Below are positions 21,419-48,933 of a stretch of 64,000 bases of DNA, one piece after another. The first letter of the stretch is position 1. Each line of letters starts with the position of its first letter. The DNA comes from Streptomyces albus subsp. albus. Its GTDB lineage: Bacteria > Actinomycetota > Actinomycetes > Streptomycetales > Streptomycetaceae. The notes under the pieces were generated by a model. It searched no databases. It was not told the DNA's origin and saw nothing but the letters and a program-made list of their open reading frames with translations. Both the position numbers and the translations under genes were made by a program. The stretch is from positions 124,001 through 188,000 of the forward strand of contig NZ_JOID01000007.1 in assembly GCF_000719865.1 (NCBI RefSeq). Reading direction: 5' to 3'.

Positions 21419-21499
21419 TCCGGCTCTCTCCTTCTGGCTGTCGTCCCGCTGTTGGCTCGCGTCGTTTCGCGTCCCCGGCCGGTGCCGGGTCCGGACCGC

Positions 21500-21525: not shown

Positions 21526-21567
21526 GTCCGCGCGGGCAGCACCGGGAGGCCGGAGGCCGCGTCCCGT

Positions 21568-23118
21568 TCAGCCGGCGGGGGCGCTGCCGTCCGGCTCGGC
21601 CGGCGCCGTGCCGTCCCGCTCCGCGGGGGTGGCGTCCTCCGCCGTGCGGGTCCTGACCGGCCGCGTGTGGACGTAGAGTTCGCGCCGCCCGGGCGTGGTG
21701 CGGCGTTCCGGCAGCGGCAGGTGGTAGCGGACCGGGCGGGCGTGATCGGCGAGTTGGCGGTCGGCGTTGTAGACCTGGCCGAACTTCCACAGCATGCGGG
21801 CGAAGTTGGTCTGGCCGCGGGCGAGGTTGCGGCCGAGGACGCCCAGCGCTCCCACGGCCGTGCGCAGGCCGAGGTGCTTGCGGTTGATGACGGCCTGGGT
21901 GCGGACGAGTTCGCGGTAGAAGGCGTCCAGCGGCAGGGTGGTGGGGACGACGGCGTGCTGGATGTCGAAGAGCCGGTAGTCGCGGGTGGTGAGCTGCCTG
22001 GCCTCGGTGTGCCAGACCTCGGTGCCGGGGTACGGGGTCATCACCGTGAGGTGCACGATCTCCGGCACGGAGAGAGCGAACTCCCGTACCACTCGGAAGC
22101 GTTGCTCGTCCCAGGCCGGGTCCACGATGAGGTTGATGGCCACGGTGATGCCGAGTTTCCGGGCCCGCTCCAGGGCGCGGAAGTTGTCGTCGGGGCTGAC
22201 GCGCTTGCGGTAGAGGTCCAGCCCTTCGGCGTCGATCGCCTCCATGCCGAGGAACATGTACTTCAGCCCCAGCCGCCGCCAGCGCGCGAACACCTCCTCG
22301 TTGCGCAGCAGGACGTCGCTGCGGGTCTCCAGGTAGTAGCGCTTGCGGATGCGGCGGCGTTCGAGTTCGGCCGCGATGCCGTCGCCGTGCTCGGGGCGGA
22401 TGAAGGCGACGTCGTCGACGATGAAGACGTTCGGCTCCCGGATGGAGGCCATCTCCTCGGCGGCGCCCTCCGGGGACGCCTTGCGGTAGCTGCGTCCGTA
22501 GAAGGTCCAGGCGGAGCAGAAGGAGCAGTCCCAGGGGCAGCCGCGGGTGAACTCGATGGAGGCGCAGGGGTCGAGCTCGCCGATGAAGTACCGGTTCCGT
22601 CTCCGCATCAGATCGCGGGCCGGGCGCGGCTCGTCGAGGCTGTCGAGGAGCAGCGGCGCCGGGCCGCGTCCCGCGGTGGAGACGAGGCCCGGCACGCTCG
22701 TCAGGCCGCCGTCCCGGACGGCCGCCATGAGCGGGGCCATGGCCGGCTCGCCCTCCCCGCGCACGACGGCGTCGACCGCGCCGTCCGCCTGTGCCAGCAC
22801 GTGGTCCGCGATGAACGAGACGCTGTGCCCGCCGAAGAAGACGAAGCAGTGCGGCAGCACCGTCTTGGTCATCCGCGCGATCTCGATGGCCTCGGGGATG
22901 TTGGCGAGGTAGTTCAGCCCGATGCCGAGGACTTCCGGGGCGTAGGAGACCAGTTCGCGGTCGAGCAGGTCACGGGAGAGCACCTGGAGGTCGACGACGC
23001 GCACCTCGTGCCCCGCCCCGCGGATCGCGGCGGCGACCCGTTCCAGCCCGAGCGGCTCCAGCCGCAGGAAGAGTTCCGAGTACATCAGGGCGCTCGGGTG
23101 GACGAGCATTACGCGCAT
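21568..23118 (-). CDS. HpnR-like B12-binding radical SAM protein
   Basis: 516 residues. Residues 1-140 form a cobalamin-binding-type Rossmann domain (MRVMLVHPSALMYSELF, then VFFGGHSVSFIADHVL); the radical SAM core starts with C194-x3-C198-x2-C201 (RGCPWDCSFCSAWTFYGRSY) and continues to about 400. The sequence around the cluster, and NVFIVDDVAFIRPEHG, closely resemble the C-3 hopanoid methylase HpnR, which moves a methyl from methylcobalamin to an unactivated carbon. No hopanoid gene is seen nearby, so the substrate is open. The start overlaps the HoxX-like stop by 10 nt, so the two are coupled. Confidence 0.85.
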   Translation of the reverse strand: MRVMLVHPSALMYSELFLRLEPLGLERVAAAIRGAGHEVRVVDLQVLSRDLLDRELVSYAPEVLGIGLNYLANIPEAIEIARMTKTVLPHCFVFFGGHSVSFIADHVLAQADGAVDAVVRGEGEPAMAPLMAAVRDGGLTSVPGLVSTAGRGPAPLLLDSLDEPRPARDLMRRRNRYFIGELDPCASIEFTRGCPWDCSFCSAWTFYGRSYRKASPEGAAEEMASIREPNVFIVDDVAFIRPEHGDGIAAELERRRIRKRYYLETRSDVLLRNEEVFARWRRLGLKYMFLGMEAIDAEGLDLYRKRVSPDDNFRALERARKLGITVAINLIVDPAWDEQRFRVVREFALSVPEIVHLTVMTPYPGTEVWHTEARQLTTRDYRLFDIQHAVVPTTLPLDAFYRELVRTQAVINRKHLGLRTAVGALGVLGRNLARGQTNFARMLWKFGQVYNADRQLADHARPVRYHLPLPERRTTPGRRELYVHTRPVRTRTAEDATPAERDGTAPAEPDGSAPAG

Positions 23119-34393: not shown

Positions 34394-36184
34394 TCACGGG
34401 CCGCCCGGACGGACCCGTCCCGCGCCGCCCATCAGCGACCGCTGGAGCGCGGACAGCCCCGGGGTCAGGGTCCGGCGGACGGGGCCGCCCCGGCCGCGGA
34501 GCGCGGCCCGCGCGGCGTTCGCGCCGCAGGCGCCGTGGACGCCGCCGCCGGGGTGGGCGGAGGCCGAGGCCAGATAGAGGCCGCGGACGGGTGTCTCGGG
34601 GCGCCCGCCGCCCGGCACGGGGCGGAAGAAGAGCTGCTGGTGGATGCCTGCGGTGCCGCCGTTGAGAGCGCCCTGCCACAGGCTCTGGTCGCGCCGCTCC
34701 AGATCGGGCGGGGTGAGGATGCGGCGCGCGGTGATGCGGTCGCGGAAGCCCGGCGCGCGTCGTTCCACCTCGGCCTCGACGCGTCGCGCCATCGTCTCCG
34801 CCGCGGTCGGGCCCCAGTGTCCGTCCAGTCCCTCGCCGCCCGCGTCGCCGCGCACCTGGTGCGGTACGTGGGTGTAGGCCCACGCCGACTCCGTGCCGGC
34901 GGGCGAGCGGCCGGGGTCGGCCGTCGTCATCTGGCCGAGCAGGGAGAAGGGCCGGTCGGGGATGTGGCCGGTGGCCAACTGGGCGGCGTGACGGGTGAGG
35001 TGGTCCATGTCCTCGGCCAGGTGCACGGTGCCGGCGCCGGCCGCGGCGGGTGACGCCCAGGGGATCGGCCCGGACAGCGCCCAGTCGACCTTGAACGTCG
35101 CGGGGTCCCACTGGAAGCGGCGGATGTCGTCGCGCAGCCGGGCCGGCAGGTGCTCCCAGCCGACCAGGCCGCCGTAGAGCGCGGGCGCCGGAACGTCGGC
35201 GAGGACGGCGCGCCGGGCCCGTACCGGTTCGCCGTCCGCGGTGAGCACCCCCAGCGCGCGCCCCTCGCGGACCACGACCCGGCGCACCTCGGTGCCGCAC
35301 CGCACGGCGCCGCCCCTGGCCTCCAGCCGGCGGACGAGGGCATCGGTGAGGGCCTGGGCGCCGCCCTCGGGCACCGGCCAGCCGTGCCGCTGGCCGATCA
35401 TGGCCAGCAGCCAGCCGAAGGCGGTGGAACCGGGCGACTCGGGCTGGAAGTCGGCGTGCAGCGCGCAGCCGGCGAGCAGCATCCGCCCGCCGCTGCCGGT
35501 GAACTCCTCCTCCCCCAGCCGCCGTACGGGCAGCAGCAGGGTGCGCATCAGCCGCAGGCCGCCCGCGGCACGGAGCCGGGCGGCGAGCACCGCGGCGGAG
35601 CGCACCGGCGGGAAGGGCGTGAAGAGGCCCTGGAGCAGTTCGGGGCCGAGGCGGTCCCACAGGCCGACGAGCCGCAGATACGCCTCGCCGTCGCCCGTCC
35701 CGCTCTCCTCCAGGCTCTCGGCGGTGCGTTCGGCGTCCCGGTGGAGGACGGGGCAGCGGCCGTCGGGCAGCGGATGGGCGAGGACGGCGGGCGCGTGGCT
35801 CCAGCGGAGTCCGTACCGTTCGAGGCCGAGCGCGGCGATCGCCGGGGAGGCGACGGCCAGCGGGTGGAACGAGCTGAACAGGTCGCTGACGTAGTCGGGG
35901 TGGACGCCCCGGTCGCTGCGGACGCCGCCGCCGGGCACCGGCTGGGTTTCCAGGACGAGGACCTTCCAGCCCGCGTCGGCCAGGATGTTCGCGGCGACGA
36001 GGCCGTTGGGGCCGGCGCCGATCACCACCGCGTCGGCGTCGCCGGCCGCGGCGGGACGCGGTGCCGCGACGGGGCCCGCCGCCTCGGCCGGCGGGGCCGG
36101 GGCCGTGGCCGGGGTTGCGGCCGTGCCCGGGCCCGGGTGCGGCTCGTCCCGGCCGCCGGGTCCGGCCGTTCCGCGGGGCGTCAT
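34394..36184 (-). CDS. Phytoene-desaturase/amine-oxidase-like FAD oxidoreductase
   Basis: 596 residues. After a 50-residue Ala/Pro-rich N-terminus comes the FAD site DADAVVIGAGPNGLVAANILADAGWKVLVLET, then GGGVRSDRGVHPDYVSDLFSSFHPLA, and near the C-terminus VRGLYLASASAHPGGGVHGACGANAARAAL, the closing FAD motif of the carotenoid-desaturase (CrtI-like) superfamily. Family members dehydrogenate or isomerise polyenes or oxidise other lipophilic substrates; no carotenoid synthase gene is near. It overlaps the SDR gene upstream by ATGA (36181-36184), implying a functional pair. Substrate unknown. Confidence 0.85.
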   Translation of the reverse strand: MTPRGTAGPGGRDEPHPGPGTAATPATAPAPPAEAAGPVAAPRPAAAGDADAVVIGAGPNGLVAANILADAGWKVLVLETQPVPGGGVRSDRGVHPDYVSDLFSSFHPLAVASPAIAALGLERYGLRWSHAPAVLAHPLPDGRCPVLHRDAERTAESLEESGTGDGEAYLRLVGLWDRLGPELLQGLFTPFPPVRSAAVLAARLRAAGGLRLMRTLLLPVRRLGEEEFTGSGGRMLLAGCALHADFQPESPGSTAFGWLLAMIGQRHGWPVPEGGAQALTDALVRRLEARGGAVRCGTEVRRVVVREGRALGVLTADGEPVRARRAVLADVPAPALYGGLVGWEHLPARLRDDIRRFQWDPATFKVDWALSGPIPWASPAAAGAGTVHLAEDMDHLTRHAAQLATGHIPDRPFSLLGQMTTADPGRSPAGTESAWAYTHVPHQVRGDAGGEGLDGHWGPTAAETMARRVEAEVERRAPGFRDRITARRILTPPDLERRDQSLWQGALNGGTAGIHQQLFFRPVPGGGRPETPVRGLYLASASAHPGGGVHGACGANAARAALRGRGGPVRRTLTPGLSALQRSLMGGAGRVRPGGP

Positions 36185-37365
36185 GTGCGCTCCCCCAGGC
36201 CGGTGGCGAATTCGCGGGCGCGGCCGCCGCCGGGGAGGCGGGCGGCCAGGGCGGGGGTCGGGCCGCCGGCGCCGTGGCGCAGGCCGGCGGCGAACTCCTC
36301 GACGGTCTCCTCCGCCGAATACCGCGGCTGCCAGCCGAGTTCGGTGCGGGCGCGCGTGGTGTCCATCAGGGGCATGCGCAGCACGGCCTCCAGGAGTCCG
36401 TCGGGAGTGGGGACGAGATGGAGCCGCCAGGCGGCCGCGGCCGCGGCCAGCACGGGCCGGGCGGGGACACGTACCGTCCGGGTTCCGAACACCCGGGCGA
36501 GCATCTCCGCGTCGACGGGCGGGTCCGCGGCGAGGTTGAAGGGGCCCCGCACGGGCTCCAGGACGGCACGGCGGAAGGCGTCGGCGGCGTCGTCGGTGTG
36601 CAGCGTCTGGAAGCGCAGCCCGGGCACGTCCGGCATCGCCGGGTAGCGCGAGGGGCGGACCATGCGGCGCGACAGCAGCGGACCGGCGAAGATCCGGCGC
36701 TGCTCGGCCGCCGACTCGCGCCGGAACACGATGCCGGGGCGGAGCCGGACCACCCGCATCGCGGGATGGTCCTGTTCGAAGGCGTCCAGCACCCGCTCCA
36801 CATACGCCTTTTCGCGGCAGTAGGCGGAGGCGGGCCAGCCGTGCGTGGGCCAGCTCTCGTCGACACCGCTCTCCTTGGGGCCGGGCGAGTAGGCCGCCAC
36901 CGAGGAGGCGTGGACGAGGGCGGGCACCCGGGCGGCGGCCGCGGCGCGGAACACCCGGGCGCTGCCCAGGACGTTGGTGCGCCAGGTCACGGCCGGCTTG
37001 TGCGAGGGGTGGAACAGCCAGGCGAGGTGGACGACGGCGTCGGCGCCCTCGAAATGCCGTACGAGGTCGGCCTGGCAGACGTCGGCGCGCAGCCACGCTG
37101 TCTTGTCGTCCCGGTCCGCGTGCTCCGGGCTGCCCGCTCCTCCGGCCCCGGCCCCGGTCCCTGCCCCGGCCGCCGGCCGTTCCGGCGGGGTGCCGGGCGG
37201 TCTGCGGGCGATGGCCAGGACCGAGCCGACCCGGTCGTCCTCCCGGAGCTGCCGCAGCAGCCCGGTACCGATGTTGCCGGTGGCGCCGGTGACGACGATG
37301 CGAAGCCCCCGATCCCGTTCGTCCCGGGCGGCGCCCGGTGGTGTGGTGCCGCTCTGGCTCGTCAT
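36181..37365 (-). CDS. NAD-dependent epimerase/dehydratase-type SDR
   Basis: 394 residues, extended SDR. The nucleotide site is RIVVTGATGNIGTGLLRQL (G-x2-G-x2-G), the catalytic pair Tyr-x3-Lys is in ASAYCREKAYVERVL, and HASSVAAYSPG gives the Ser block. An Ala/Gly insertion occupies about 60-85. Extended SDRs act on nucleotide sugars or on steroid/lipid substrates; pairing with a desaturase-like FAD enzyme favours a lipid rather than a sugar (inference). ATG 37365 has AAGGAG 8 nt upstream; the reading frame extends further without a ribosome site. Overlaps the next gene by four bases. Confidence 0.85.
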   Translation of the reverse strand: MTSQSGTTPPGAARDERDRGLRIVVTGATGNIGTGLLRQLREDDRVGSVLAIARRPPGTPPERPAAGAGTGAGAGGAGSPEHADRDDKTAWLRADVCQADLVRHFEGADAVVHLAWLFHPSHKPAVTWRTNVLGSARVFRAAAAARVPALVHASSVAAYSPGPKESGVDESWPTHGWPASAYCREKAYVERVLDAFEQDHPAMRVVRLRPGIVFRRESAAEQRRIFAGPLLSRRMVRPSRYPAMPDVPGLRFQTLHTDDAADAFRRAVLEPVRGPFNLAADPPVDAEMLARVFGTRTVRVPARPVLAAAAAAWRLHLVPTPDGLLEAVLRMPLMDTTRARTELGWQPRYSAEETVEEFAAGLRHGAGGPTPALAARLPGGGRAREFATGLGERT

Positions 37366-37877
37366 GCTCGGCTCCTTCTGCTCCGGCAGGCTCCGGGTCC
37401 GCCGCTCGTGCCGCTTCCGGCGGGCCTGCCGCTCCGCGCCGTGTTTCCCGCTCCGCGCCGTGCTCCTGCTCTCCACTGCGCCGCGGCGCAGTGCCGTGTG
37501 GTGACGGTGTGCCGTGCTGCTTCCCTGCTGTGCCGCCGCCCTGGCGCTCATCGCGCCGGCGGGGGCGCTGTGGGCCGGCGTGCGGCCTTCCGGCTGTGCC
37601 CCGGGACCCCGGGGCGCCCATCCGGCCGTCCTGCCGTCGGCCCCCTGCCGGAACGGGGGGCGGGACGCGGCCCGCCCCCCGTCCCCCCTGGCTGCGGAGG
37701 GGATGCGGCGGGTTTCCGGCAGCCCGGGAGGGGTATGCCGGCGGCCGCGCCGCGGGCTCGCGGTGACCGGGCCGGGCCGGCCGTCGTGCCCGAGAGTCCG
37801 CCGTGCCCGACCCGTCCGCCGTGCCTGACCGGCCGTCTCCCTCGCGGGTGGCCGGGGACCCGCCGGATGGCCCGCCG
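37366..37877 (-). other. Intergenic region, 512 nt
   Basis: No gene supported. A hairpin (GCCCCGGG at 37598-37605, complement at 37608-37615) could terminate the small leftward gene. No promoter consensus was identified. Confidence 0.35.
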
Positions 37878-38416: not shown

Positions 38417-39484
38417 TCATCCGCTGACGGCGGCTGCGGCGGCCGGGGGCCGCTGTCCGGCGCCGGGCGGTGGCGGGGCGGCCACCGGTTCGGGCAGCGT
38501 GGCCAGTGCCGCCAGGACCTCCTCCACCGTGATGCGCAGCAGCCGCTCGTCGGGCTGTTCACCATGGGCGTCGCCGGGGCGGGCCCCAGGGCTGTCGGGG
38601 TGCCACAGCGCCCGGTGGCGCGGGTCGTCCGGCGGGCCCCACAGCCGCGGCGCGACGGGCCCGAACAGAACGACGGACGGGGTGCCGAGGGCCGTCGCCA
38701 GGTGCGCCAGGCCGGTGTCGCCGACGACGACCGCGCGGGCGCGCGCGACCAGCGCGGCCAGATCGGGGAACGGCACGTCGGCGTCGCCGCCCAGCACGGC
38801 GGTGGCGGGCAGTCCCGCGTGGGCGGCGACCGAGCGGGCGAGCGCGCCCTCGCCCGCGCCGGCGGTGATGACCACGCGCTGCCCGGCCTCGCGCAGCGCG
38901 CGGGCCACGGCCCCGTACCGGTCGGCGGGCCAGCAGCGCGCGCCGGCGTCCGCGCCGGGGTGGACGATCACGGCGCCGGGGGCCGGCGACGGTCTGCCGG
39001 GCAGGGGGATCCGCAGGTCGTCCGGGTCGGCCGGGATGCCGTACCACTCCAGGAGCCGGCACCAGCGGGCGCGTTCGTGTTCGTCGTCCCGCCATTCCGG
39101 ACCGGCGATGCCGGGGGTGTCCGGGTGGGCGTACGCCATCAGCCGGCCGGGGCCCAGGTCCCGCAGCGGCAGGTGGCTCGCGGGGCCGTTGCCGTGCAGG
39201 TCGACGGCGATGCCGGGGGGCGGGCCCGTCCACGCGACGCGTTCGGGTACCGCGCGCCCGGGCGCGGCGGCGGGGAGCAGGCGGTCGACGGTGCCGGTGG
39301 CGAAGGCGGCCTCGGCGAGCCGGGCCGGTGCGGCGAGCACCAGTTCGTGCGCCGGGTGGGCGCGGCGCAGGGCGCGCAGGGCCGGCACGGCGGTCAGCAG
39401 GTCCCCCAGGCCGAGGGCGCGGAGCACCAGCAGGGACGGGGTTCCGGGCGGTGCGGTGATGTCGATGATGTCGCGGGAGGTCAT
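38417..39484 (-). CDS. Glycosyltransferase family 9 (heptosyltransferase-like)
   Basis: 355 residues, GT-B fold. TPSLLVLRALGLGDLLTAVPALRALRRAHP and the C-terminal VIVHPGADAGARCWPADRYGAVARAL, VVVGDTGLAHLATALGTPSVVLFGP are the GT9 signatures (the last binds the nucleotide-heptose). GT9 enzymes transfer heptose from ADP-heptose in LPS-core synthesis, so an analogous donor in this operon is expected. It is the last gene of the leftward operon and overlaps the HldE-like gene by ATGA (39481-39484). The C-terminal 25 residues are Ala/Pro-rich. Confidence 0.88.
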   Translation of the reverse strand: MTSRDIIDITAPPGTPSLLVLRALGLGDLLTAVPALRALRRAHPAHELVLAAPARLAEAAFATGTVDRLLPAAAPGRAVPERVAWTGPPPGIAVDLHGNGPASHLPLRDLGPGRLMAYAHPDTPGIAGPEWRDDEHERARWCRLLEWYGIPADPDDLRIPLPGRPSPAPGAVIVHPGADAGARCWPADRYGAVARALREAGQRVVITAGAGEGALARSVAAHAGLPATAVLGGDADVPFPDLAALVARARAVVVGDTGLAHLATALGTPSVVLFGPVAPRLWGPPDDPRHRALWHPDSPGARPGDAHGEQPDERLLRITVEEVLAALATLPEPVAAPPPPGAGQRPPAAAAAVSG

Positions 39485-41313
39485 CCGGCGGCTCCGGGGG
39501 CTGTGCCGGCTGTGCCGGCCGTGGTGGTGGCCGCGGGCGCGAGCGCGGCGCGGCGTGCGATCTCGGTGGTGGAGCGGCCGTCCAGGTAGGGCAGGACGAG
39601 GGCCTGTCCGCCCCACTGGCGCAGGACCGGTGCCTCGGGGAGCGCGTCGACGCTGTAGTCGCCGCCCTTGACCCAGATGTCGGGGCGCAGGGCGCGCAGC
39701 AGTTCCTCGGGCGTGTCCTCGTCGAACACGGCCACCGCGTCCACGCAGCCCAGTCCGGCCAGCACGCGGACCCGGTCGGCCTGGTGGTTGAACGGCCGTC
39801 CGGGTCCCTTGAGGCGGCGTGCGGAGTCGTCGGAGTTGACGCAGACGATGAGGCAGTCGCCGACGCGGCGGGCGTTCTCCAGCAGGCCGACGTGCCCGGC
39901 GTGCAGCAGGTCGAAGCAGCCGCCGGTGGCGACGACGGTGCCGCCGCGGGCGCGTACGGCCTCGGCGAGCGCGAACGGGTCTTCGGGGCCGGCGGGCCGG
40001 TGGGCGGCGGACGGCCGGCCGCGCCACAGCGCGGGGTTTCCGGCGCCGCCCGCCGCGACGAACGCGGCGGCCTCGGCGACCGCCCGCTGCACGGCCTCCT
40101 CGGGGAGCGCGCCGTCGGCGAGCGCGGCGGCGGCCGCCGCGGCGAAGCGGTCGCCGGCGCCGCACGGGTCGCCGCCGGAAGCCTGCGGTGCCGGGACGAG
40201 CATCGGGCTGTCGCTCCCGGGGCGGGTCAGGAGGGCGCCGCGGGCGCCGAGGGTGACGGCCACCGTGGCGGCCCGCCAGCGTTCGGCGAGGCGGGCGCCG
40301 CGGATGCCGTGGGCGCGGAGGGAGTCGTCACCGGGGGCGCCGGTGGCGGTGGCGGTGCGGTCGGTGGCGTCGTGCCCGGCGGCGTTCCCGGCGGTGTCAC
40401 GGCCGGCCGTCCACCCGGCGGCGGACTCGGCGGGGCCCGGGCCGGTGTCCGAACCGTCCGCGCCACGCGAGCCCGCAGCTCCGCCGGCGAGAGCCGCACC
40501 GGTCCGGTCCGCACCGTCGGACTCCGTGCAGGTAAGGGCAGTTGGGCGAGCACCCGGGCCGGGGTCCGGCGGCCCGCCGGGCACCAAGGCGCGGGCCTCG
40601 GCCGCGTTGGGCGTGGCCGGCCCGGCACCGGGCACGGGCCCCGGCTCGCCCCCGCCGCCCGCGCCCGGCCCCGCACCGCCGGCTTCCGTACCCGTACAAG
40701 CGCTTGGGCGAGCACCCGGGCCGGGGTCCGGCGGCCCGCCGGGCACCAAGGCGCGGGCCTCGGCCGCGTTGGGCGTGGCCAGCCGGGCGCCGGGCACCGG
40801 CTCGTCCCCGCGCGGATGCGGGTCCCACACCAGCGGTACGCGCCGCGCGGCCTCCGCGAGGTACCGGCGGACGGCGGTGGCCGTGCCGCGCCCGTAGTCG
40901 GCGACGAGGACCGCGCCCGCCCCGCGCAGCGCGGCCCGTACGGCGTCGTCCGGCTCCCCGGGGCTGCCGCCGCCCCGGTCGATCCGGACCAGCGGACGGC
41001 CGTCGGCACGGACCCGGATCTTCTCGGGCAGCGTGCCGTGCAGCGGCAGTTCGACGAGCCGGACGCGCGGGGAGAGCGCGGCGCGGACGGTGCGGCTCGC
41101 CGGGTCGTCACCGAGGGCGGTGACGAGCACGACCTCGCGCCCGTCCGCCGCGGCGAGGACGGCGGCCAGTCCGGCGCCGCCGGGGCGGCTGCGGTCGCCG
41201 GCGACGTCCACGACGGGCGCGGGCGCGTCGGGGGCCAGGCGCTCGGCCGTGCCGTCGATGTCCCGGTCGAGCAGGACGTCACCGACGACGACGAGAGGCG
41301 GACGGTGGTTCAT
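39481..41313 (-). CDS. hldE: HldE-like bifunctional heptose 7-phosphate kinase / heptose 1-phosphate adenylyltransferase
   Basis: 610 residues. The kinase domain starts with VVVGDVLLDRDIDGTAERLAPDAPAPVV, has the catalytic DPCGAGDRFAAAAAAAL (G-A-G-D), and LATPNAAEA of PfkB kinases. The nucleotidyltransferase domain (about 455-600) has GGCFDLLHAGHVGLLENAR (H-x-G-H), KGPGRPFN, WVKGGDY and GRSTTEIARR, matching HldE. Between residues 178 and about 335 a low-complexity insertion contains a tandem in-frame copy of the TPNAAEARALVPGG segment. Pathway: heptose-7-P to 1,7-bisP, then 1-P to ADP-heptose. The GAGGTGATC before ATG 41313 complements the 16S 3' end over nine bases. Coupled to the GT9 gene. 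Confidence 0.88.
   Translation of the reverse strand: MNHRPPLVVVGDVLLDRDIDGTAERLAPDAPAPVVDVAGDRSRPGGAGLAAVLAAADGREVVLVTALGDDPASRTVRAALSPRVRLVELPLHGTLPEKIRVRADGRPLVRIDRGGGSPGEPDDAVRAALRGAGAVLVADYGRGTATAVRRYLAEAARRVPLVWDPHPRGDEPVPGARLATPNAAEARALVPGGPPDPGPGARPSACTGTEAGGAGPGAGGGGEPGPVPGAGPATPNAAEARALVPGGPPDPGPGARPTALTCTESDGADRTGAALAGGAAGSRGADGSDTGPGPAESAAGWTAGRDTAGNAAGHDATDRTATATGAPGDDSLRAHGIRGARLAERWRAATVAVTLGARGALLTRPGSDSPMLVPAPQASGGDPCGAGDRFAAAAAAALADGALPEEAVQRAVAEAAAFVAAGGAGNPALWRGRPSAAHRPAGPEDPFALAEAVRARGGTVVATGGCFDLLHAGHVGLLENARRVGDCLIVCVNSDDSARRLKGPGRPFNHQADRVRVLAGLGCVDAVAVFDEDTPEELLRALRPDIWVKGGDYSVDALPEAPVLRQWGGQALVLPYLDGRSTTEIARRAALAPAATTTAGTAGTAPGAAG
40542..40780. repeat. 77-bp perfect direct repeat inside hldE
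   Basis: Copies at 40542-40618 and 40704-40780 are identical; the offset of 162 bp is exactly 54 codons. Flanking bases are weakly similar, so the original unit was longer. Encodes the TPNAAEARALVPGG block twice. Confidence 0.9.
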
Positions 41314-41428
41314 GATCACCTCGCAGCTGCGCTGTGCGGGTCCGGCGCGGCGTGGCGTGCCGTTCCGGGGGTGGTCCGGCCGGGGGCGGCTGTGTTCCGG
41401 CCCGGGGCGGCGCCGCAGGCGGCGGTCC

Positions 41429-42142
41429 TCATGCGATGTCCCGCCAGGGGCGCACCGTCGCGGTCCGCACGCCGTTCACATGTCCGTTCACGTGTCCGTT
41501 CCGGGCGGCGCGGGACCCGGGCTCCGGGGCGGCGGGTGCTCCTGCCGCCGCGGCGGCCGCCGCCGGCACCGCCGCCGCAGAGTCGAACGCCGCGCACAGC
41601 AGGTGCAGCGCCACCAGATGCGCCTCCTGCACCGTCGCCGTGCTGTCCGCGTCGACGCACAGCGCCTCGCCGGCCCGGGCGGCGAGCGGGTTGGGCCGGG
41701 GCCCGGTCATCGCCCACACCCGCAGTCCGGCGGCGCGCGCGGTGTCGGCGGCGGCGAGCAGGTTGGGGCTGCGCCCGGACGTCGACATCAGGACGAGGAC
41801 GTCACCCGGCCGCCCGTGCGCGGCGACCTGGCGCGCGTACAGTTCCTCGAAGCCGTAGTCGTTGCCGATGGCGGTGACGGTGGACGTCTCGGCGTGCAGG
41901 GCGATCGCCGAGTACGCGGGACGCTCCCGCTGGAAGCGGCCGACGAGTTCGGCGGTGAGGTGCTGGGCCTGTGCGGCGCTGCCGCCGTTGCCCGCGGCGA
42001 GCAGCCGGCCGCCCACGGGGAGGACGGCGGCGAGGTGTTCGCCCCAGGCGGTGATCAGGCCGAGGTCCCGGTCGCGGAGCCGGCCGAGGGCGTCCTGGAG
42101 CGACTGGCAGTGTGCGTGTGCTGCGCGCAGCGTGTCCGTCAT
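41429..42142 (-). CDS. gmhA: GmhA-like sedoheptulose 7-phosphate isomerase (SIS domain)
   Basis: 237 residues. The SIS core is RLLAAGNGGSAAQAQHLTAELVGRFQRERPAYSAIALHAETSTVTAIGNDYGFEELYARQV, then VLVLMSTSGRSPNLLAAADTARAAGLRVWAMTG and ADSTATVQEAHLVALHLL. Gly-Asn-Gly-Gly-Ser, QHLTAEL and QEAH reproduce GmhA's substrate and metal residues. It converts sedoheptulose 7-phosphate to D-glycero-D-manno-heptose 7-phosphate, the first step of the pathway continued by HldE. The Ala/Gly tail ends with a 12-bp tandem repeat (near 41474-41497) coding NGHVNGHVNG. GGGAGGA precedes ATG 42142. Confidence 0.9.
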   Translation of the reverse strand: MTDTLRAAHAHCQSLQDALGRLRDRDLGLITAWGEHLAAVLPVGGRLLAAGNGGSAAQAQHLTAELVGRFQRERPAYSAIALHAETSTVTAIGNDYGFEELYARQVAAHGRPGDVLVLMSTSGRSPNLLAAADTARAAGLRVWAMTGPRPNPLAARAGEALCVDADSTATVQEAHLVALHLLCAAFDSAAAVPAAAAAAAGAPAAPEPGSRAARNGHVNGHVNGVRTATVRPWRDIA

Positions 42143-42212
42143 GCGTTCGTCCTCCCAGAAGAACAAGAGTTCGGTGGCGCGGCCGCGAAAGCGGCGCGGC
42201 GCGGGGCGCGGT

Positions 42213-43460
42213 TCAGGCCGCTCCGGTCACGGCGGCGGGGCGCAGGGCGAGCACGTCCCGGTAGACGGTCTCGGTGGCGGCCGCGACCCGGTTCCAGCCG
42301 AAGCGGAGGAGGGCGCGGCGGCGCCCGGCGAGCCCGCACGCCTCGCGCAGCTCCGGGTTGCGCAGCAGCGCGGAGGCGGCGGCCGCGAGGGCCGCGGGGT
42401 CGCCCGGCGGCACGAGCCGCCCGGTGCCCGGGTCGGCGACGGAGTCCATCTGGCCGCCGACGGCGCTGGCCACCACGGGGGTTCCGCAGGCCATGGCCTC
42501 CAGCGGCACGATGCCGAACGGCTCGTAGTCGGCCGGGCAGAGGACGAGGTCGGCACCGCGCAGCAGCGCGGGCACGTCCTCCGGCGGTACTCCGCCGGTG
42601 AAGCGCACCCGGTCGGCCACGCCCGCCTTCCGGGCGAGCGCGCGCAGCCGGCGCACCTCCGGGTCCGCGCCGATGCGGTGCGGCGGCGGGCCGCCCGCGA
42701 TGACGAGTTCGGCATCCGGCAGCAGGGCGAGCGCGGCGATCGACACAGCCGCTCCCTTGCGCGGCACGAGCCGCCCGATCTGCAGCAGCCGGTGTGGCAG
42801 CGGCCCGCGGGGCGCGGCGGGCCCGTCGGGGGTGAACCGCTCGGTGTCGACGCCGCAGGGGACGACGGAGATCCGCCCGGCGGGGATGCCCATGGTGATG
42901 AGTTCCGCGACCTCGTCGCGGCAGGTGGCGATGATCCGGTCGCTGCTCTCGCCGATCTCCGTCTCCAGCAGGATCCGCTCCGGCGGGCTGGTGTCGGCGC
43001 CGCCCTGGTGGCGCTTCTTGACGGCGCCGAGGGCGTGGTACGTGTGCGCGACCGGCACGCCGGTCTCGCGGGCGGCTTGCAGCGTGGCCAGCCCGGACAT
43101 CCAGAAGTGCGAGTGCGCCAGGTCGGGGGGCGCGAGCTCCCACTGCCGGGCGAGGCGCCGGCCGAACTCGGGCATGTAGGGCAGCAGTTCGTCCTTGGGG
43201 AGCTCCCGCGCGGGCCCGGCCGGCACATGGCACACCTCGACGCCCGGGCGCAGCGGTACACGGTCGGGCAGGTCGGGCGCATCGCGCCGGGTGTGGACGG
43301 TGACCCTGTGGCCGCGGTCGGCGAGGGCGCCGGCGAGGTGCGCCACATGGACGTTCTGTCCGCCCGCGTCGACTCCGCCGAGGACGGCCAGCGGACTGGC
43401 GTGCTCGGATATGAGGGCGATGGCGAGGGAGCCCGCGCCGCTCCGGACGGTGACGGTCAT
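42213..43460 (-). CDS. Glycosyltransferase family 4
   Basis: 415-residue GT-B enzyme. The N-terminal part has ALISEHASPLAVLGGVDAGGQNVHVAHLAGALADRGHRVTVHTRR (GGQNVHV acceptor/donor loop), and the C-terminal GT4 domain contains RLLQIGRLVPRKGAAVSIAALALLP, ADLVLCPADYEPFGIVPLEAMACGTPVVASAVGGQMD with the E-x7-E motif (EPFGIVPLEAMA). Retaining GT4 enzymes of this subtype transfer a hexose or heptose onto lipid- or glycan-linked acceptors. It overlaps the next gene by ATGA (43457-43460) and is upstream of gmhA by 70 nt in the same operon. Confidence 0.9.
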   Translation of the reverse strand: MTVTVRSGAGSLAIALISEHASPLAVLGGVDAGGQNVHVAHLAGALADRGHRVTVHTRRDAPDLPDRVPLRPGVEVCHVPAGPARELPKDELLPYMPEFGRRLARQWELAPPDLAHSHFWMSGLATLQAARETGVPVAHTYHALGAVKKRHQGGADTSPPERILLETEIGESSDRIIATCRDEVAELITMGIPAGRISVVPCGVDTERFTPDGPAAPRGPLPHRLLQIGRLVPRKGAAVSIAALALLPDAELVIAGGPPPHRIGADPEVRRLRALARKAGVADRVRFTGGVPPEDVPALLRGADLVLCPADYEPFGIVPLEAMACGTPVVASAVGGQMDSVADPGTGRLVPPGDPAALAAAASALLRNPELREACGLAGRRRALLRFGWNRVAAATETVYRDVLALRPAAVTGAA

Positions 43461-44422
43461 CGGGTGACCTCCTCGATCAGGTGCTCCCAGTCGCTCAGGA
43501 AGCGCTTGAGGCCGTAGCGTTCGAGGGCGGCGGTGCGGGCCCGCGCCCCGTCCTCGGCGGCCGCCGCGGGGTCGTCCAGATAGGCGCGGGCGGCGCGGGC
43601 CAGTTCCTCGGGCCGCGTCGAGACGAAGCCGGCTCCGGCGGGGACGGCCTCCACGGCCTCGGTGGTGGCGAGGGCGACCACCGGCATCCCGAGGTGCATG
43701 GCCTCCAGCAGGGAGAGCCCGAGGGAGGTCCAGCGGACCGGGTGGAGGTAGAGCCGGCGCCGCGCCATGGCGGTGTGCAGTTCGCTCTGCGGCAGGTCCC
43801 GGACCCGGCAGCGCTCCTCGTCCAGCCCGAGGTGCGCCGGAAGTCCTTCGGTGCGCATGCCGAAGACATCCAGGGGCGCGGCCGCGCTCAGGTGGGGCAG
43901 CAGGTCGGTGCCGGTGGTGCGGCCGCGGCGGACGGGTTCGTTGACGACGACGGCCGCGCGCTCCACCTCGCCGGTGTAGAGGTGGCCGGGGTCGACGATG
44001 CCGTGTTCGATCACGGCGGTGCGGGTGGATCCGTTGTCCCAGAACAGCCGGTTGAAGTGGGTGACGTGGACGAGGGTCAGGCCGGCCCGGTCCGCGGCCG
44101 GGTGGCGGGTGTGGGGGACGTCGCCGTCGGGCGCGTTGTGCTCCAGGTAGACGGCCGGGACGTCCCGGCCGGGCCGCCGCCCGCCGAGCCAGCGCTCGGC
44201 GAGCTCCGCCTCGTGCGGCCGCTGGAGGACGACGAGGTCCACGGGTTCGTCGCGCAGCTGCTCGGGGGTGCGTTCGAGGACGGAGTCCGGCCAGGCCCAG
44301 GTGCGGGCGCGGCCGAGGCCGTCGGGGCCGCGGCCGGGCAGGACGGGCACCAGATAGGTGTGCGGGCCCTGGACGAACGCCGTCGTCCAGGAACCGTGCA
44401 CGTGCCAGAGCAGGATGTTCAT
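43457..44422 (-). CDS. Glycosyltransferase (GT-B, GT4-like)
   Basis: 321 residues. The C-terminal half shows GT-B donor-binding features: RRRLYLHPVRWTSLGLSLLEAMHLGMPVVALATTEAVEAVPAGAGFVS (a variant E-x7-E), while the N-terminal half (MNILLWHVHGSWTTAFVQGPHTYLVPVLP; AVYLEHNAPDGDVPHTRH) has the glycan-binding side of the fold. The sequence is shorter and more divergent than the neighbouring GT4. It overlaps both neighbours by four bases, tying it firmly to the heptose/glycosyltransferase operon. Donor and acceptor unknown. Confidence 0.85.
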   Translation of the reverse strand: MNILLWHVHGSWTTAFVQGPHTYLVPVLPGRGPDGLGRARTWAWPDSVLERTPEQLRDEPVDLVVLQRPHEAELAERWLGGRRPGRDVPAVYLEHNAPDGDVPHTRHPAADRAGLTLVHVTHFNRLFWDNGSTRTAVIEHGIVDPGHLYTGEVERAAVVVNEPVRRGRTTGTDLLPHLSAAAPLDVFGMRTEGLPAHLGLDEERCRVRDLPQSELHTAMARRRLYLHPVRWTSLGLSLLEAMHLGMPVVALATTEAVEAVPAGAGFVSTRPEELARAARAYLDDPAAAAEDGARARTAALERYGLKRFLSDWEHLIEEVTR

Positions 44423-45843
44423 GCGGTCCTCCACTCCGGGTCTCCGGTGGCCGGTGCGGCCGGCCCGGCCGGGCAGGCGGTCGGCACCGTGGGGCGGGGC
44501 GGCGCGGCGCGCTCGGGCGGCGCTGCGGGGTCGGGCGGGGCCACGGGGTCGGCCGGGCCCGCGCCGTCGGGCAGGATCGTTGACACGGGCGGCGCCCCGG
44601 GGTCGCCGCGGGGAGCGGCAGACGCGGGGTCGCGGGACGGGGCGGCCGGTGCCGGACCGCCACACGGGACGGCCGACGCGGGGTCGCTGTACGGGGCGGG
44701 GCGGGAGGCGGGCCCGGATCCGGCCGCCGGCGGGGGTGCGGCCGACCGCCCCGGCGCGGCCTGCCGCTCGGGCACCACTGCCGTCCGCGGCGCCGCCGCC
44801 CGCTCGGACGCCGCCGCGGGCCGCGCCGGGCCTTCGGTCGACGTGCCCGTCAACCTCCCCACGGCGGACAGCAGTTCGGCGTCCGTCACCGAGTCCAGGC
44901 ACGGATGCCCGGGTACGGGACACTCGCGGGCGCGGGTCCCGGCGCACGGCGCGTCCTGCCGTCCCAGCACTACGTGCGGCACCCCGTACGGCGCCCAGCG
45001 CTCGGCGGGCACGACCGGTGCGAACAGGCAGACGACGGGCGCGCCGACGGCCGCCGCCAGGTGCGAGGGCCCGGTGTTGCCGGTGACGACCGCCCGGGCG
45101 CGGGACAGGACCCCGGCCAGCTCGCGCAGGTCCGTGCGCCCCCCGAGGTCGAGCCCGTACTCCCCCGCGACGGCCGCGGTGAGTTCCTTCTCTCCCGGGC
45201 CGCCGGTGACGACGACCCGGTGCCCGGCCGCGTCGAGCGCCGCCACGGCGCGCGCGGCCCGCTCGGGGCTCCAGGCGCGGGCGGGGACGGCGGCCCCGGG
45301 GTGGACGACGAGGTACGGGTCCTCCCCGGTGAGGTGGGTGGTGTCGGCGGTGTCGCGCACCCGCAGGGCCCCGTCGTCGCCGGCCGGCAGGGCGAAGCCG
45401 GCCGCCTCCGCGAGCGCCAGCGCGGCCCGCGCCTCGTGCTGCGCGGCCGCGCGCCGGTGACGCAGATCGAGCAGCGATCCGGGGTAGTGCTCGCTGTCGG
45501 CGGCGATCCAGCGCACGCCGGCCATGCGCAGCAGCAGCGCGATGGGCAGCGGGCTCTGGTGGTACGAGGCCAGGATGAGCGCCCGGTCGAAGCGTCCCGC
45601 CGATACGGCCTCGATCAGCGCCTCGTGATCGCCCCGGCGCACCGGCGGCGGCTCCAGGCCGACCCACGGCGCGTCGTACACGAGGACGTCGTCGACCCCC
45701 GGGAGCAGCCGCGCGGCCTGCTCGCCCTGCGGCCCGCAGAGCATCGCGGTGTACGAGGAACCGTGCGCGGCCGCGCGTACCGCGGGGCCGGCGAGCAGGA
45801 CGTCTCCGGCGCTGTCGAGACGGACGACGAGGGTGCGTATCAC
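44419..45843 (-). CDS. Glycosyltransferase family 9 (heptosyltransferase-like) with a long disordered tail
   Basis: 474 residues. The GT9 catalytic part (1-345) opens IRTLVVRLDSAGDVLLAGPAVRAAA and includes YLVVHPGAAVPARAWSPERAARAVAALDAAGHRVVVTGGPGEKELTAAVA and RAVVTGNTGPSHLAAAVGAPVVCLFAPVVP (nucleotide-sugar site). CAGTRARECPVPGHPCLDSV adds a Cys-rich loop typical of heptosyltransferase II-like proteins. Residues 345-474 are Pro/Ala/Asp repeats (DPASA, RGDPG) of unknown role. GTG start at 45843 has GAAGGGAG; a GTGA overlap joins it to the phosphatase gene. Confidence 0.87.
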   Translation of the reverse strand: MIRTLVVRLDSAGDVLLAGPAVRAAAHGSSYTAMLCGPQGEQAARLLPGVDDVLVYDAPWVGLEPPPVRRGDHEALIEAVSAGRFDRALILASYHQSPLPIALLLRMAGVRWIAADSEHYPGSLLDLRHRRAAAQHEARAALALAEAAGFALPAGDDGALRVRDTADTTHLTGEDPYLVVHPGAAVPARAWSPERAARAVAALDAAGHRVVVTGGPGEKELTAAVAGEYGLDLGGRTDLRELAGVLSRARAVVTGNTGPSHLAAAVGAPVVCLFAPVVPAERWAPYGVPHVVLGRQDAPCAGTRARECPVPGHPCLDSVTDAELLSAVGRLTGTSTEGPARPAAASERAAAPRTAVVPERQAAPGRSAAPPPAAGSGPASRPAPYSDPASAVPCGGPAPAAPSRDPASAAPRGDPGAPPVSTILPDGAGPADPVAPPDPAAPPERAAPPRPTVPTACPAGPAAPATGDPEWRTA

Positions 45844-46586
45844 GCGGCGCTCCCTTCGCCGGACGGACCGTCCGCTTCCCCGGAGGGACGGCCTTCGCGG
45901 GAGGGAGGGGAAGGACGGCGGTCCTCGCGGGACCGACGGTCCAGTCCGGACGGAAGGTCCAGTCCGGACGGCGGGCGGCCCAGCGCCACGCGCACCGCCG
46001 CCAGCAGGTCGGCCGCGCGCTCCGGGGCCGCGTCGGTCTCCTCGGCACGGGTCACGGGGGTGGGCACCAGTACGCCCCGGGCGCCGGCCGCGCGGGCCGC
46101 ACCCAGGTCGGCGCCGATGTCGCCGATGACGACCGTCTCCTCCGGCGCCACACCGAGCCGCGCGCAGGCGGCGAACACCAGTCCGGGCGCCGGCTTCCGG
46201 CAGGGGCAGCCGTCGCCGGGCCCGTGCGGGCAGACGGCCCACACCCCGAACGGTCCGAGCAGTTCCTCGACCCGCCGCCGCACGGCTTCGACCTGCCGCC
46301 GGGTGAGGAGCCCGCGGGCCACCCCGGACTGGTTGCTCACCACGCCGACGGCCACGCCCCGGGCCCGTACCGCCTCCAGCGCTTCGCGGGCGTGCGGCAT
46401 CAGGCGTACGAGCGCGGGGTCGCCGTTGTACGGAACGTCCTCGACGAGCGTGCCGTCGCGGTCGAACAGGACGGCTCGCGTCGCGCCGGCGGGCGCGAGA
46501 GGCGTTCGCGGCGGCTCACCGGGAGCGTAGAGCCACGGGCCCTCGGGCGGCGCCGGGACTTCGTGGGGGGTTGTAGTGATCGGCAC
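45840..46586 (-). CDS. gmhB: GmhB-like D,D-heptose 1,7-bisphosphate phosphatase (HAD-IIIA)
   Basis: 248 residues. HAD motifs: ATRAVLFDRDGTLVEDVPYNGDPALVRLMP, GVAVGVVSNQSGVARGLLTRRQVEAV and CRKPAPGLVFAACARLGVAPEETVVIGDIGADLGAARAAGARGVLV. The zinc-binding insertion is CPHGPGDGCPCRKP, as in GmhB. The enzyme removes the C7 phosphate of heptose 1,7-bisphosphate between the two HldE steps. GTG 46586 is assumed, but no strong ribosome site is present. The C-terminal tail is basic and Pro-rich. It is the first gene of the operon, opening into the repeat-rich intergenic region. Confidence 0.85.
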   Translation of the reverse strand: MPITTTPHEVPAPPEGPWLYAPGEPPRTPLAPAGATRAVLFDRDGTLVEDVPYNGDPALVRLMPHAREALEAVRARGVAVGVVSNQSGVARGLLTRRQVEAVRRRVEELLGPFGVWAVCPHGPGDGCPCRKPAPGLVFAACARLGVAPEETVVIGDIGADLGAARAAGARGVLVPTPVTRAEETDAAPERAADLLAAVRVALGRPPSGLDLPSGLDRRSREDRRPSPPSREGRPSGEADGPSGEGSAA

Positions 46587-46886
46587 GACGGCGCGGGTAG
46601 CCCGAGAGCCGCTCCGCAAACACGGTCAAACGCCACGAGGAGTCACTGTGGCCGGACCGCCCAGTACATCGCTCCTGGTCGCGACGGTAACCAGGGCCGA
46701 TTACCGGACATGCGCCCCTCCGTGCCCGGTCGGCGCCCTCCCGGATCCTCCGCCTCCGGCAGCCCTTCCGGACCGGCGGCGGTGCGGCGTCCGGCGTCCG
46801 GCTCCGGCGAGACAGCCGGCCGGGCGGTGAGCTGAGACCCGGGCCGCACCCCGGCCGAACGTCGACACGGCGCTGCACGCGCTTCG

Positions 46887-46928
46887 CGGCACGCGGCACG
46901 CGGCACGCGGCACGCGGCACGCGGCACG
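46887..46928. repeat. Heptanucleotide array A: CGGCACG x 6
   Basis: Six perfect tandem copies of the 7-mer CGGCACG with no spacer, about 300 nt upstream of the heptose operon start. Period 7 is unusual for coding DNA. Confidence 0.9.
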
Positions 46929-47000
46929 CGAGGGACAGTGCGCGGTGGACTGCACGCTGAGCGATGGGCGAGCGGTTGACGGAAAGCGGTACACGGAACG

Positions 47001-47077
47001 ACGGGCCACGGGCCACGGGCGACGGGCGACGGGCGACGGGCGACGGGCGACGGGCGACGGGCGACGGGCGACGGGCG
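47001..47077. repeat. Heptanucleotide array B: ACGGGCS x 11
   Basis: Two ACGGGCC units followed by nine ACGGGCG units, contiguous, all with a 7-bp period; ends in ACGGTAA. It sits 73 nt beyond array A in the same intergenic region. Confidence 0.9.
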
Positions 47078-47502
47078 ACGGTAAGCCGCAGCGGCCCGGC
47101 GGCACACCGTGCGGCCGGAGCCGGGAGCAGCACAGCGGTGTGGGTGTGGTCCCGCACCGGCGGCGCCGTTCCGCTCCGCCACCGCACCGCACCGCACCTC
47201 ACCGGCCCCGCCGCCGCCCCGCCGCCACCTTGACCGCCGGATCGGATCGGTGCTTGCATCGGGCCTCACCAACGCGCCGCATTCCAGAGCGTGTTGACGG
47301 CCCTCGGGCCATCCGTGCTCCACGGCGGCACCGGCACCACCCAACACCCTTCCGCCAGGACGGCAGAGCCGCGCCCGTCGGACAACGTTGTCGAGAAGCC
47401 GCCCGCCCCGAAACCCCCGCCACCACCGCGGGCGCACCAGTCGTCCCGCCCGGCCCCTTCCCGCACCGCCCCCGACCACGCCACCGGCCCAGGAGGACCC
47501 CC

Positions 47503-48933
47503 ATGAACTCCCCCGCCCACCCCGCCCCGCCCTCACCCCACGACTCGGCGCGGGCACCGCACCGGAGATCCCGCACGGCGGGAACCCGATCCGGCCGGCG
47601 CGAACCCGCCGCCCGACGGCTCCCGGCCCTCGCCGCCGGCCGCCTGGCCCGCCCCGTGGCCGCCGCTGCCGTCCTCGCCCTGGCGGCGGCACTGGCCCCG
47701 GCGGCCGCCCAGCCCGCCGCCGCTCACGGCACCCCGGCCCGGCCCGGCCCCGGCAAGAGCCGCGGCTGGGTCGCCGCCTGGGGCGCGAGCCAGGTGGCCG
47801 GCAGCACCATCCCCTGGAGCGACTGCCCGGCCGGTGAGGGGCTGGAGAACCAGACGGTCCGCAACGTCCTGTTCGTCAAGGGCGGCGGCAGCAGCGTCCG
47901 GGTCCGGGTCACCAACGCCTTCGGCACGCAGCCCGTCACGGTGGACAAGGTGACCGTCGCTCTCCAGGCCGAGGGCGCCGACGCCGTCCCCGGCACCCTG
48001 CGCACCCTGGCCTTCGGCGGGGACCGGGCCACCACCCTCGCTGCGGGAGAGGAACGGTTCAGCGACCCGGTCCGGATGCCCGTACGAGCGCTCTCGACTC
48101 TCCTCGTCAGCGTCCATGTCGACAAGGCGACCGGCCCCGTCGCCAACCACCCCTTCACCGCGCAGGGCAACTACCTGGCCGACGGCGACGAGGCGGCCGA
48201 CCCCTCCGGCGATGACTACGCCGGCACGCCGTGCTGGATGCTCGTCAGCGGGGTGGACGTGCGCGGCGACCACCGCACGGTCGGCTCGGTGGTGGCCTTC
48301 GGCGACTCGATCACCGACACCGCGAGCACCACGGGCAACGCCAACCAGCGCTACCCGGACCATCTCGCCCGCCGCCTCCGGGCCCGCACGGGCCCGACCC
48401 TGTCGGTGGTCAACGCGGGCCTGGGCGGCAACCGCCTGCTCGCCGACCGCGAGGGCGAGCCGTACTACGGCGTCGCCGCCCTCTCCCGCATGGAGCGCGA
48501 CGCCTTCGGACAGACCGGCGTCCGCTCGGTGATCCTGCTGGAGGGCGTCAACGACATCGGCTACGACGCCACGGCGGAGGAACTCATCGCCGGCTACCAG
48601 GCGTTCATCGAGGAGGGCCATCGCCACGGCGTGAAGGTGTACGGCGGAACACTGCTGCCCATGGCCGGCTCGCTCATCTGGACGGAGAGCCGCCAGGCCA
48701 CGTGGGACGCGGTGAACCACTGGATCCGCACCTCGGGCGCGTTCGACGGCGTCATCGACTTCGCGGCGGCCACCGCCTCCCCCGGCGACCCCCTGACGCT
48801 CAACCCGGCCTACGACAGCGGCGATCACCTCCACCCCAACGACGCGGGCACCCGCGCGATGGCGGAGGCGGTCGACCTGGACCTGCTCCTCACGGACGCC
48901 CGCGGCCGCACCCCCGGCGCCGGCCGGCGCTGA
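47503..48933 (+). CDS. Secreted SGNH/GDSL hydrolase
   Basis: 476 residues. Residues 1-75 form a long, Arg-rich N-region and a hydrophobic alanine-rich signal (PVAAAAVLALAAALAPAAAQPAAAHG), likely cleaved near 70-76. The SGNH blocks follow: VAFGDSITDTAST (GDS nucleophile), VVNAGLGGNRLL (Gly), LLEGVNDIGYDAT (Asn) and GDHLHPNDAG (Asp-x2-His). The enzyme would be an extracellular esterase/lipase or polysaccharide deacetylase of the Streptomyces GDSL type. The N-terminal part of the mature protein (WGASQVAGST to TAQGNYL) is a beta domain seen in this subgroup. ATG 47503 has AGGAGG. Neighbouring genes suggest polysaccharide degradation. Confidence 0.87.
   Translation: MNSPAHPAPPSPHDSARAPHRRSRTAGTRSGRREPAARRLPALAAGRLARPVAAAAVLALAAALAPAAAQPAAAHGTPARPGPGKSRGWVAAWGASQVAGSTIPWSDCPAGEGLENQTVRNVLFVKGGGSSVRVRVTNAFGTQPVTVDKVTVALQAEGADAVPGTLRTLAFGGDRATTLAAGEERFSDPVRMPVRALSTLLVSVHVDKATGPVANHPFTAQGNYLADGDEAADPSGDDYAGTPCWMLVSGVDVRGDHRTVGSVVAFGDSITDTASTTGNANQRYPDHLARRLRARTGPTLSVVNAGLGGNRLLADREGEPYYGVAALSRMERDAFGQTGVRSVILLEGVNDIGYDATAEELIAGYQAFIEEGHRHGVKVYGGTLLPMAGSLIWTESRQATWDAVNHWIRTSGAFDGVIDFAAATASPGDPLTLNPAYDSGDHLHPNDAGTRAMAEAVDLDLLLTDARGRTPGAGRR

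Follow-up and report, generated by a model that had tools for sequence, protein, structure and literature searches.

What would a Gram-positive actinomycete, which to our knowledge makes no lipopolysaccharide (LPS), unlike Gram-negative bacteria, build from activated heptose? The question is raised by a locus of Streptomyces albus subsp. albus in a 64,000-nucleotide stretch of contig NZ_JOID01000007.1 (positions 124,001 to 188,000, forward strand), hereafter the window, whose numbering is used below unless the contig is named. Seven leftward genes at 38417-46586 encode GmhA-, HldE- and GmhB-like proteins together with four glycosyltransferases, and we read them, with a probability of about 0.7, as cwgD-cwgJ, the downstream portion of an operon of the Streptomyces cwg type, which would make nucleoside diphosphate (NDP)-D-glycero-D-manno-heptose for a cell-envelope glycan. 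Gene content, gene order, motifs, the split of the operon in this assembly and the linkage counts across genomes were observed directly.

Layout and enzymes of the heptose locus

The coding-model gene call, Pfam and NCBIfam agree on the seven genes. From 46586 down to 38417 on the reverse strand, the unit begins with a cwgD-like gene for a GmhB-type HAD phosphatase (predicted heptose 1,7-bisphosphate 7-phosphatase; 45840..46586, 248 amino acids, GTG start uncertain) and a cwgE-like GT9 glycosyltransferase of 474 amino acids with a low-complexity tail (44419..45843; PF01075, E = 9.1e-26). Two GT4-family glycosyltransferases follow, cwgF-like (43457..44434; PF00534, E = 5.9e-10; probable ATG at 44422, with an ATGA overlap with the preceding gene) and cwgG-like (42213..43460; PF00534, E = 2.3e-42), the latter scoring 249.9 bits against the MshA model, under its cut-off of 462.5. 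The unit ends with a cwgH-like GmhA, a putative sedoheptulose 7-phosphate isomerase of the SIS family (41429..42166; PF13580; probable ATG at 42142), a cwgI-like HldE, in which a PfkB-type heptose 7-phosphate kinase appears fused to a heptose 1-phosphate nucleotidyltransferase (39481..41319; probable ATG at 41313), and a cwgJ-like GT9 glycosyltransferase (38417..39484; PF01075, E = 1.1e-21). Four junctions, read directly, overlap by 4 bases: GTGA where the GmhB gene meets the first GT9 gene, and ATGA at the two junctions that follow and again where hldE meets the cwgJ-like gene. On either side of gmhA there are gaps of 70 and 115 bp. A sequence-only reading of the window had described the same heptose genes, with two GT9 and two GT-B glycosyltransferases, as a leftward operon with overlaps; all of this was borne out, except for the upstream end that it placed at 46586, since orthologues of cwgA-C lie ~43.5 kb upstream, beyond the window.

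An isomerase, a kinase, a phosphatase and a nucleotidyltransferase are all encoded, as judged by family and motif. The nucleotidyltransferase domain of HldE exceeds the curated TIGR02199 cut-off (189.6 versus 181.5 bits), whereas the other three functions score below theirs (values given below), as does the protein against the full HldE model (266.1 bits, cut-off 521), so the GmhA, GmhB, kinase and GT9 names rest on family, motifs and context. Direct reading found catalytic motifs in the heptose enzymes. The GmhB-like protein carries DRDGT, SNQS, CPH...C-x-CRKP and GDIGAD, scores 110.5 bits against the HAD-IIIA model TIGR01662, and matches the GmhB structures 4pnh and 2gmw among other HAD enzymes in the Protein Data Bank (PDB). 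GmhA matches phosphoheptose isomerase structures (best E = 2.4e-38), and HldE matches 5x9q and, for the first half of its kinase, the heptose kinase 4e84. Heptose transfer is predicted for the two GT9 proteins, which share an HxA-type donor-site motif; the cwgE-like one (GDV, NTGPSHLA) matches the GT9 structure 3tov and WaaC 2h1f, and the cwgJ-like one (DTGLAHLA) matches WaaF 1psw and WaaC 2h1f.

A probable cwg operon

The cwg operon of Streptomyces was reportedly described by Hong et al. in 2002 as a target that responds to wall antibiotics. According to passages in PMC5839063, the S. coelicolor operon has a phosphoheptose isomerase at cwgH and a bifunctional synthase/transferase at cwgI, with transferases around them, and PMC6767563 describes cwg, in the part available, as a predicted cell-wall-glycan biosynthesis operon and sigma-E target in the envelope-stress and vancomycin response. 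The same order, GmhA-HldE-GT9 preceded by GT4, GT4, GT9 and a HAD enzyme on one strand, is present here, and the heptose gene set is a member of the known cwg operon family, not a new kind of locus. The earlier impression of an unexplained Gram-positive oddity therefore falls away, all the more since heptose pathways of Streptomyces have been published (cited in PMC10221265). Within the open-access literature, with subscription papers mostly outside the search, no paper was found that links cwg with heptose chemistry or carbamoylation.

To describe conservation of the locus, the best 80 of at least 467 confirmed relatives, obtained with HldE as query, were taken as named loci, and their genes were called by a codon-model script with approximate starts, clustered and ordered. 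In Streptomyces the genes recur in the order A (SDR), B (carbamoyltransferase), C (GT2), D (GmhB), E (GT9), F (GT4), G (GT4), H (GmhA), I (HldE) and J (GT9). The block D-E-F-G-H-I is contiguous in 51 named loci (37 of 56 from Streptomyces and 14 of 24 from other genera), which is more than chance, and several of the others are cut by contig ends. Of the 56 Streptomyces loci, 33 have the longer block A-I contiguous, as does the single Kitasatospora locus; four further Streptomyces loci have D-I and a contig end before A. Outside Streptomyces, D-I occurs in Arthrobacter, Pseudarthrobacter, Curtobacterium, Cellulomonas, Geodermatophilus and Actinomadura, and parts of the set turn up elsewhere. 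In Arthrobacter and Pseudarthrobacter loci, the heptose operon is followed downstream by genes for an aldehyde dehydrogenase and for another PfkB-nucleotidyltransferase protein (L099:12229-15296).

Two wider samples extend this picture. The TIGR02199 cut-off is exceeded in 73 of 199 genomes of the genus and in 80 of 394 genomes of the class. Orthologues of CwgB (62-84% identity, with the next matches at 48% or less) were found in 80 of the class genomes, 73 of which also have the heptose nucleotidyltransferase domain, within 12 kb in 64 cases, 54 of these outside the genus. The class counts retain heptose-domain matches of at least 143 bits and CwgB matches of at least 676 bits, with 23 weaker CwgB matches and all weaker heptose-domain matches dropped, and the co-occurrence counts and statistics ignore the relatedness of the genomes.

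A displaced operon head in this assembly

The genes cwgA, cwgB and cwgC do not lie directly upstream of cwgD here, unlike in the cwg operon order. Their orthologues, sought with S. cacaoi protein queries, are present in the genome on the same contig (contig 7, 214120-219111) and on the same strand as D-J, with identities of 75%, 81% and 67% for cwgA, cwgB and cwgC, respectively. CwgA of this genome scores 321.9 bits against UDP-glucuronate decarboxylase, with the next different enzyme at 118.4, and UDP-xylose is therefore its predicted product; CwgC belongs to the GT2 glycosyltransferase family. The S. cacaoi CwgB has Carbam_trans_N and Carbam_trans_C domains and aligns in the PDB with TobZ, the novobiocin enzyme and GdmN, placing it in the TobZ/NodU O-carbamoyltransferase family. 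Its HHxxH region, whose histidines presumably bind metal, was aligned to TobZ and was also read in the CwgB of this genome. The latter was called at 792 amino acids (L152:15220-17598) and has a repeat-rich C-terminal tail of ~240 residues that is absent from the 556-residue S. cacaoi orthologue. In four of the 80 named loci (L102, L106, L110 and L128), CwgC and CwgD stand in one reading frame, with DRDGT seen in three of the four.

With cwgD starting at contig position 170,586 and cwgC ending at 214,120, ~43.5 kb separate the two halves. Within the genus sample, hldE (over the cut-off) and cwgB (matches of at least 421 bits, two weaker ones dropped) occur together in 66 genomes. They stand within 12 kb of each other in 58 of these (4.15-7.45 kb) and on different contigs in seven, which leaves this genome as the only one with the two genes far apart on a single contig. 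The class sample adds one genome of another family (G437), with hldE and cwgB 35 kb apart. On the window side, the breakpoint region is ~1 kb without a called gene (46587..47655) that holds 7-bp tandem arrays just upstream of cwgD, at 46885-46930 (6.6 copies) and 46999-47081 (11.9 copies), and the two junction regions share only an 18-bp inverted match of 94% identity and shorter ones.

Between the halves, 33 genes were called. The 20 scanned with Pfam (the other 13 are mostly small), three of them without a family, include no mobile-element family; the families comprise GDSL lipase, LacI regulator, GH6, BCCT transporter, GMC oxidoreductase, aldehyde dehydrogenase, amidase, M23 peptidase and an APH-like kinase. 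Also in this interval are a 1746-residue protein with DUF4011, AAA helicase, MTES_1575 nuclease-like and DUF3320 domains (51706-56946) and an nSTAND1-WD40 protein of 1186 residues (L151:3872-7432). No tRNA was found in the window or in the fetched stretches L151, L152 and L158. The guanine-plus-cytosine (GC) fraction between the halves, 0.726, is slightly below that of D-J (0.784), of A-C (0.767) and of the outer flanks (0.747 and 0.750), which does not prove an insertion. Matches of at least 45% identity to the proteins that relatives encode near cwg are scattered over ~100 kb of this contig, suggesting several rearrangements. One of these matching genes, at 1601-2545 and itself without a Pfam match, is related to a weakly pyruvyltransferase-like gene that adjoins cwg in some other Streptomyces and here stands ~36 kb away.

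The split could alternatively be an error of assembly and the operon intact, which would concern the split only and is compatible with a cwg-type operon. The genome is a draft of 6.94 Mb in 126 contigs, the arrangement is seen in this genome only within the genus sample, and tandem repeats stand at the breakpoint. However, a single 250 kb contig carries both halves on the same strand with the 33 genes between them, and the proteins neighbouring cwg in relatives match across ~100 kb of it; we consider an assembly error unlikely, although of all the alternatives discussed here it is the one to be taken most seriously.

Epimer and donor nucleotide

The sequence-only reading had seen no HldD-type epimerase in the operon and had proposed a D-glycero-D-manno donor. 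A genome-wide profile search agrees, with no HldD over the cut-off in the genome (best TIGR02197 match 97.6 versus 274.6 bits; in a control, the cut-off was passed in 2 of 14 genomes), so the route is expected to go no further than the D-glycero-D-manno form. A neighbouring SDR gene at 36181-37476 was considered as HldD and rejected at 16 bits; its cluster has six members, drawn from five of the 80 named loci besides the window, and is no regular part of the operon. The adjoining CrtO-like oxidoreductase (34394-36184) has no cluster in common with the named loci.

HldE carries a GAGD motif and ends in YLDGRSTT. According to PMC11573728 and PMC11461863, (F/L)xxGRSTT is the signature of heptose nucleotidyltransferases that accept CTP and UTP in addition to ATP. 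In a test for the STTR5 motif, the arginine stands at position 5 of YLDGRSTT, and position 1 is Y and not F or L. The form YxxGRSTT recurs in 119 of 120 HldE homologues among the matches listed, which are near relatives and include the protein itself; besides it, the closest among them are those of Streptomyces sp. F63 (84% identity) and S. xinghaiensis (74%). Across the named loci, 52 of 77 HldE proteins have exactly xxxGRSTT, and another 20 depart from the motif at other positions, in 19 cases keeping R before S, so the promiscuity-type RSTT trait is common, not universal. Since the RSTT motif is described as marking enzymes that also take CTP and UTP, the term ADP-heptose may be too narrow, and the predicted donor is ADP-heptose and probably also CDP- or UDP-heptose. 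Of the earlier claim of a route from sedoheptulose 7-phosphate to ADP-heptose, the coverage of all four steps stands, by family and motif, while the restriction to ADP perhaps does not.

The kinase loop of HldE is enlarged by low-complexity sequence with an inner repeat of a 25-residue stretch. At 172 residues between anchors, versus a median of 64, it is the longest measured among the 120 listed proteins, its own included. A reading of this enlargement as a sign of decay was rejected: loop length varies in relatives, and frame and motifs are intact.

Predicted product and alternative explanations

What follows on the activities of the enzymes, on the nucleotide of the donor, on the acceptor sugar and on a place in the cell wall is prediction. 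GmhA would isomerise sedoheptulose 7-phosphate, the kinase domain of HldE would phosphorylate the product at C1, the GmhB-like HAD enzyme would take off the 7-phosphate, and the nucleotidyltransferase domain of HldE would yield NDP-D-glycero-D-manno-heptose, with ADP and probably also CDP or UDP; without HldD, the sugar would keep its D,D configuration. Heptose transfer would probably fall to the two GT9 enzymes, and the addition of other sugars to the GT4 and GT2 enzymes. From cwgA-C would probably come UDP-xylose made by CwgA, the O-carbamoylation of a sugar by CwgB, in analogy to WapO, and the GT2 transferase CwgC. In Pseudomonas LPS, heptose II is carbamoylated through the putative carbamoyltransferase WapO, according to part of PMC8005017, and carbamoylation of heptose by CwgB, with heptose as the predicted acceptor, is on this analogy a fair prediction. 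The product is best read as a glycan of the envelope that contains D-glycero-D-manno-heptose and perhaps also carbamoyl groups and xylose. More tentatively, and with rather less confidence than in the operon assignment, one may picture actinomycetes with cwg-type operons as building a Gram-positive equivalent of the inner core of LPS, a D,D-heptose oligosaccharide of the envelope carbamoylated by CwgB, bearing xylose through CwgA and drawing on CDP- or UDP-heptose as well as ADP-heptose.

Other uses of these genes have been considered. The heptose might go into a secreted natural product, much as NDP-heptose serves septacidin and hygromycin B in Streptomyces (PMC10221265 and PMC10948575, in the parts available), and the sequence-only reading had left the product open between a surface glycan, a glycolipid and such a compound. 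A surface glycan remains a good candidate, but the natural-product role is less likely, since the set spans many actinomycete genera, with TIGR02199 exceeded in more than a third of the genus sample, and no natural-product core gene was seen right next to it among those scanned; the description of the S. coelicolor operon as an envelope-stress target (PMC6767563, in part) also points away from it, and we regard this role as improbable. About as improbable is that the heptose label itself is wrong, with the enzymes handling another sugar phosphate or the GT9 proteins using a non-heptose donor. Most heptose models were indeed matched under curated cut-offs (GmhA 152.4 versus 209.45 bits for TIGR00441, GmhB 101.5 versus 178 bits for PRK08942, the HldE kinase domain 105.9 versus 345 bits, and both GT9 proteins below theirs), and the GT9 matches to solved structures are weak, the best (E = 9.9e-11 and 1.3e-12) spanning the C-terminal half only. 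However, genes for all four functions co-occur, the TIGR02199 domain is above its cut-off, and the cwgE-like GT9 aligns to WaaC across residues 3-280. Finally, the donor might heptosylate proteins or a glycolipid with no wall glycan involved, as the E. coli aah product does with proteins (PMC11461863, in part). Five glycosyltransferases (two GT9, two GT4 and one GT2), a UDP-xylose-synthase-like enzyme and a carbamoyltransferase instead point to an oligosaccharide, and S. coelicolor cwg responds to vancomycin (PMC6767563, in part), leaving this possibility quite improbable.

A cwg-type envelope glycan operon nevertheless has several observations weighing against it, beginning with the scores under curated cut-offs just given. 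H or L replaces R in the HldE motif in 5 of the 77 proteins of named loci (four from Streptomyces and one from Geodermatophilus). In the class sample, CwgB occurs without the heptose domain in 7 of 80 genomes and the heptose domain without CwgB in 20 of 93. That cwgA-C belong with D-J in this strain appears probable by orthology only. No heptose-containing Streptomyces wall polymer came up in the literature searches, and the 37 of 54 called window genes scanned with Pfam include no exporter, lipid-carrier, flippase or ligase family. A strict sigma-E pattern, taken from the published cwg promoter, had no match in the window, the region before cwgD included, and none in the 40 cwgA upstream regions of relatives, which makes this a weak test, and Tran et al. 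do not have cwg among 21 conserved sigma-E promoters. A loose pattern was uninformative (19 of 40 cwgA upstream regions versus 158 of 298 controls), with none upstream of cwgD and three upstream of the strain's own cwgA, and a narrower look at the cwgA upstream regions of relatives revealed no common position.

Beyond the sequence-only reading, the analysis adds the split operon, the link to a carbamoyltransferase and a UDP-xylose-synthase-like enzyme, and the question of the donor. The gene content yields a composition that can be tested, with D,D-heptose, xylose and carbamoyl, and leaves ADP, CDP or UDP as candidate donor nucleotides. Some Gram-positive S-layer glycans contain heptose; if heptose is present in the envelopes of soil actinomycetes, heptose glycans would reach well beyond LPS. 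Vertebrate ALPK1 senses NDP-heptoses (PMC11573728, in part), which would then have a known use in a large Gram-positive group. Elsewhere in the window, at 19013-24830, a radical SAM/B12 protein lies beside a fusion of formyltransferase-C and enoyl-CoA hydratase, with an adjoining TPP enzyme and hemerythrin.

Comparison with known heptose systems

The closest known system is the cwg operon of S. coelicolor (SCO6179-SCO6190), which, in the accounts available in part, shares GmhA at H and an HldE-type protein at I, D-J corresponding to cwgD-cwgJ by order and annotation. It differs in that A-C here lie ~43.5 kb off, no sigma-E-like site precedes cwgD, and counterparts of K and L were not identified. 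With the septacidin and hygromycin B pathways, as partly described, the locus shares Gram-positive heptose phosphate enzymes that start from sedoheptulose 7-phosphate; those pathways serve natural products, whereas the set here comes with many glycosyltransferases and occurs in many genera. WapO of Pseudomonas LPS offers the precedent of a carbamoyltransferase working with heptosyltransferases (PMC8005017, in part), although the likeness of CwgB to it is drawn by analogy, the comparison of CwgB having been made with TobZ, GdmN and other solved enzymes. The Gram-negative ADP-heptose pathway of the LPS core (GmhA, HldE, GmhB, HldD and WaaC/WaaF) differs from the locus in its HldD, for which no match over the cut-off exists here, and in the promiscuous-type RSTT of the nucleotidyltransferase described above, while the first four steps and the GT9-family transferases are the same in both.

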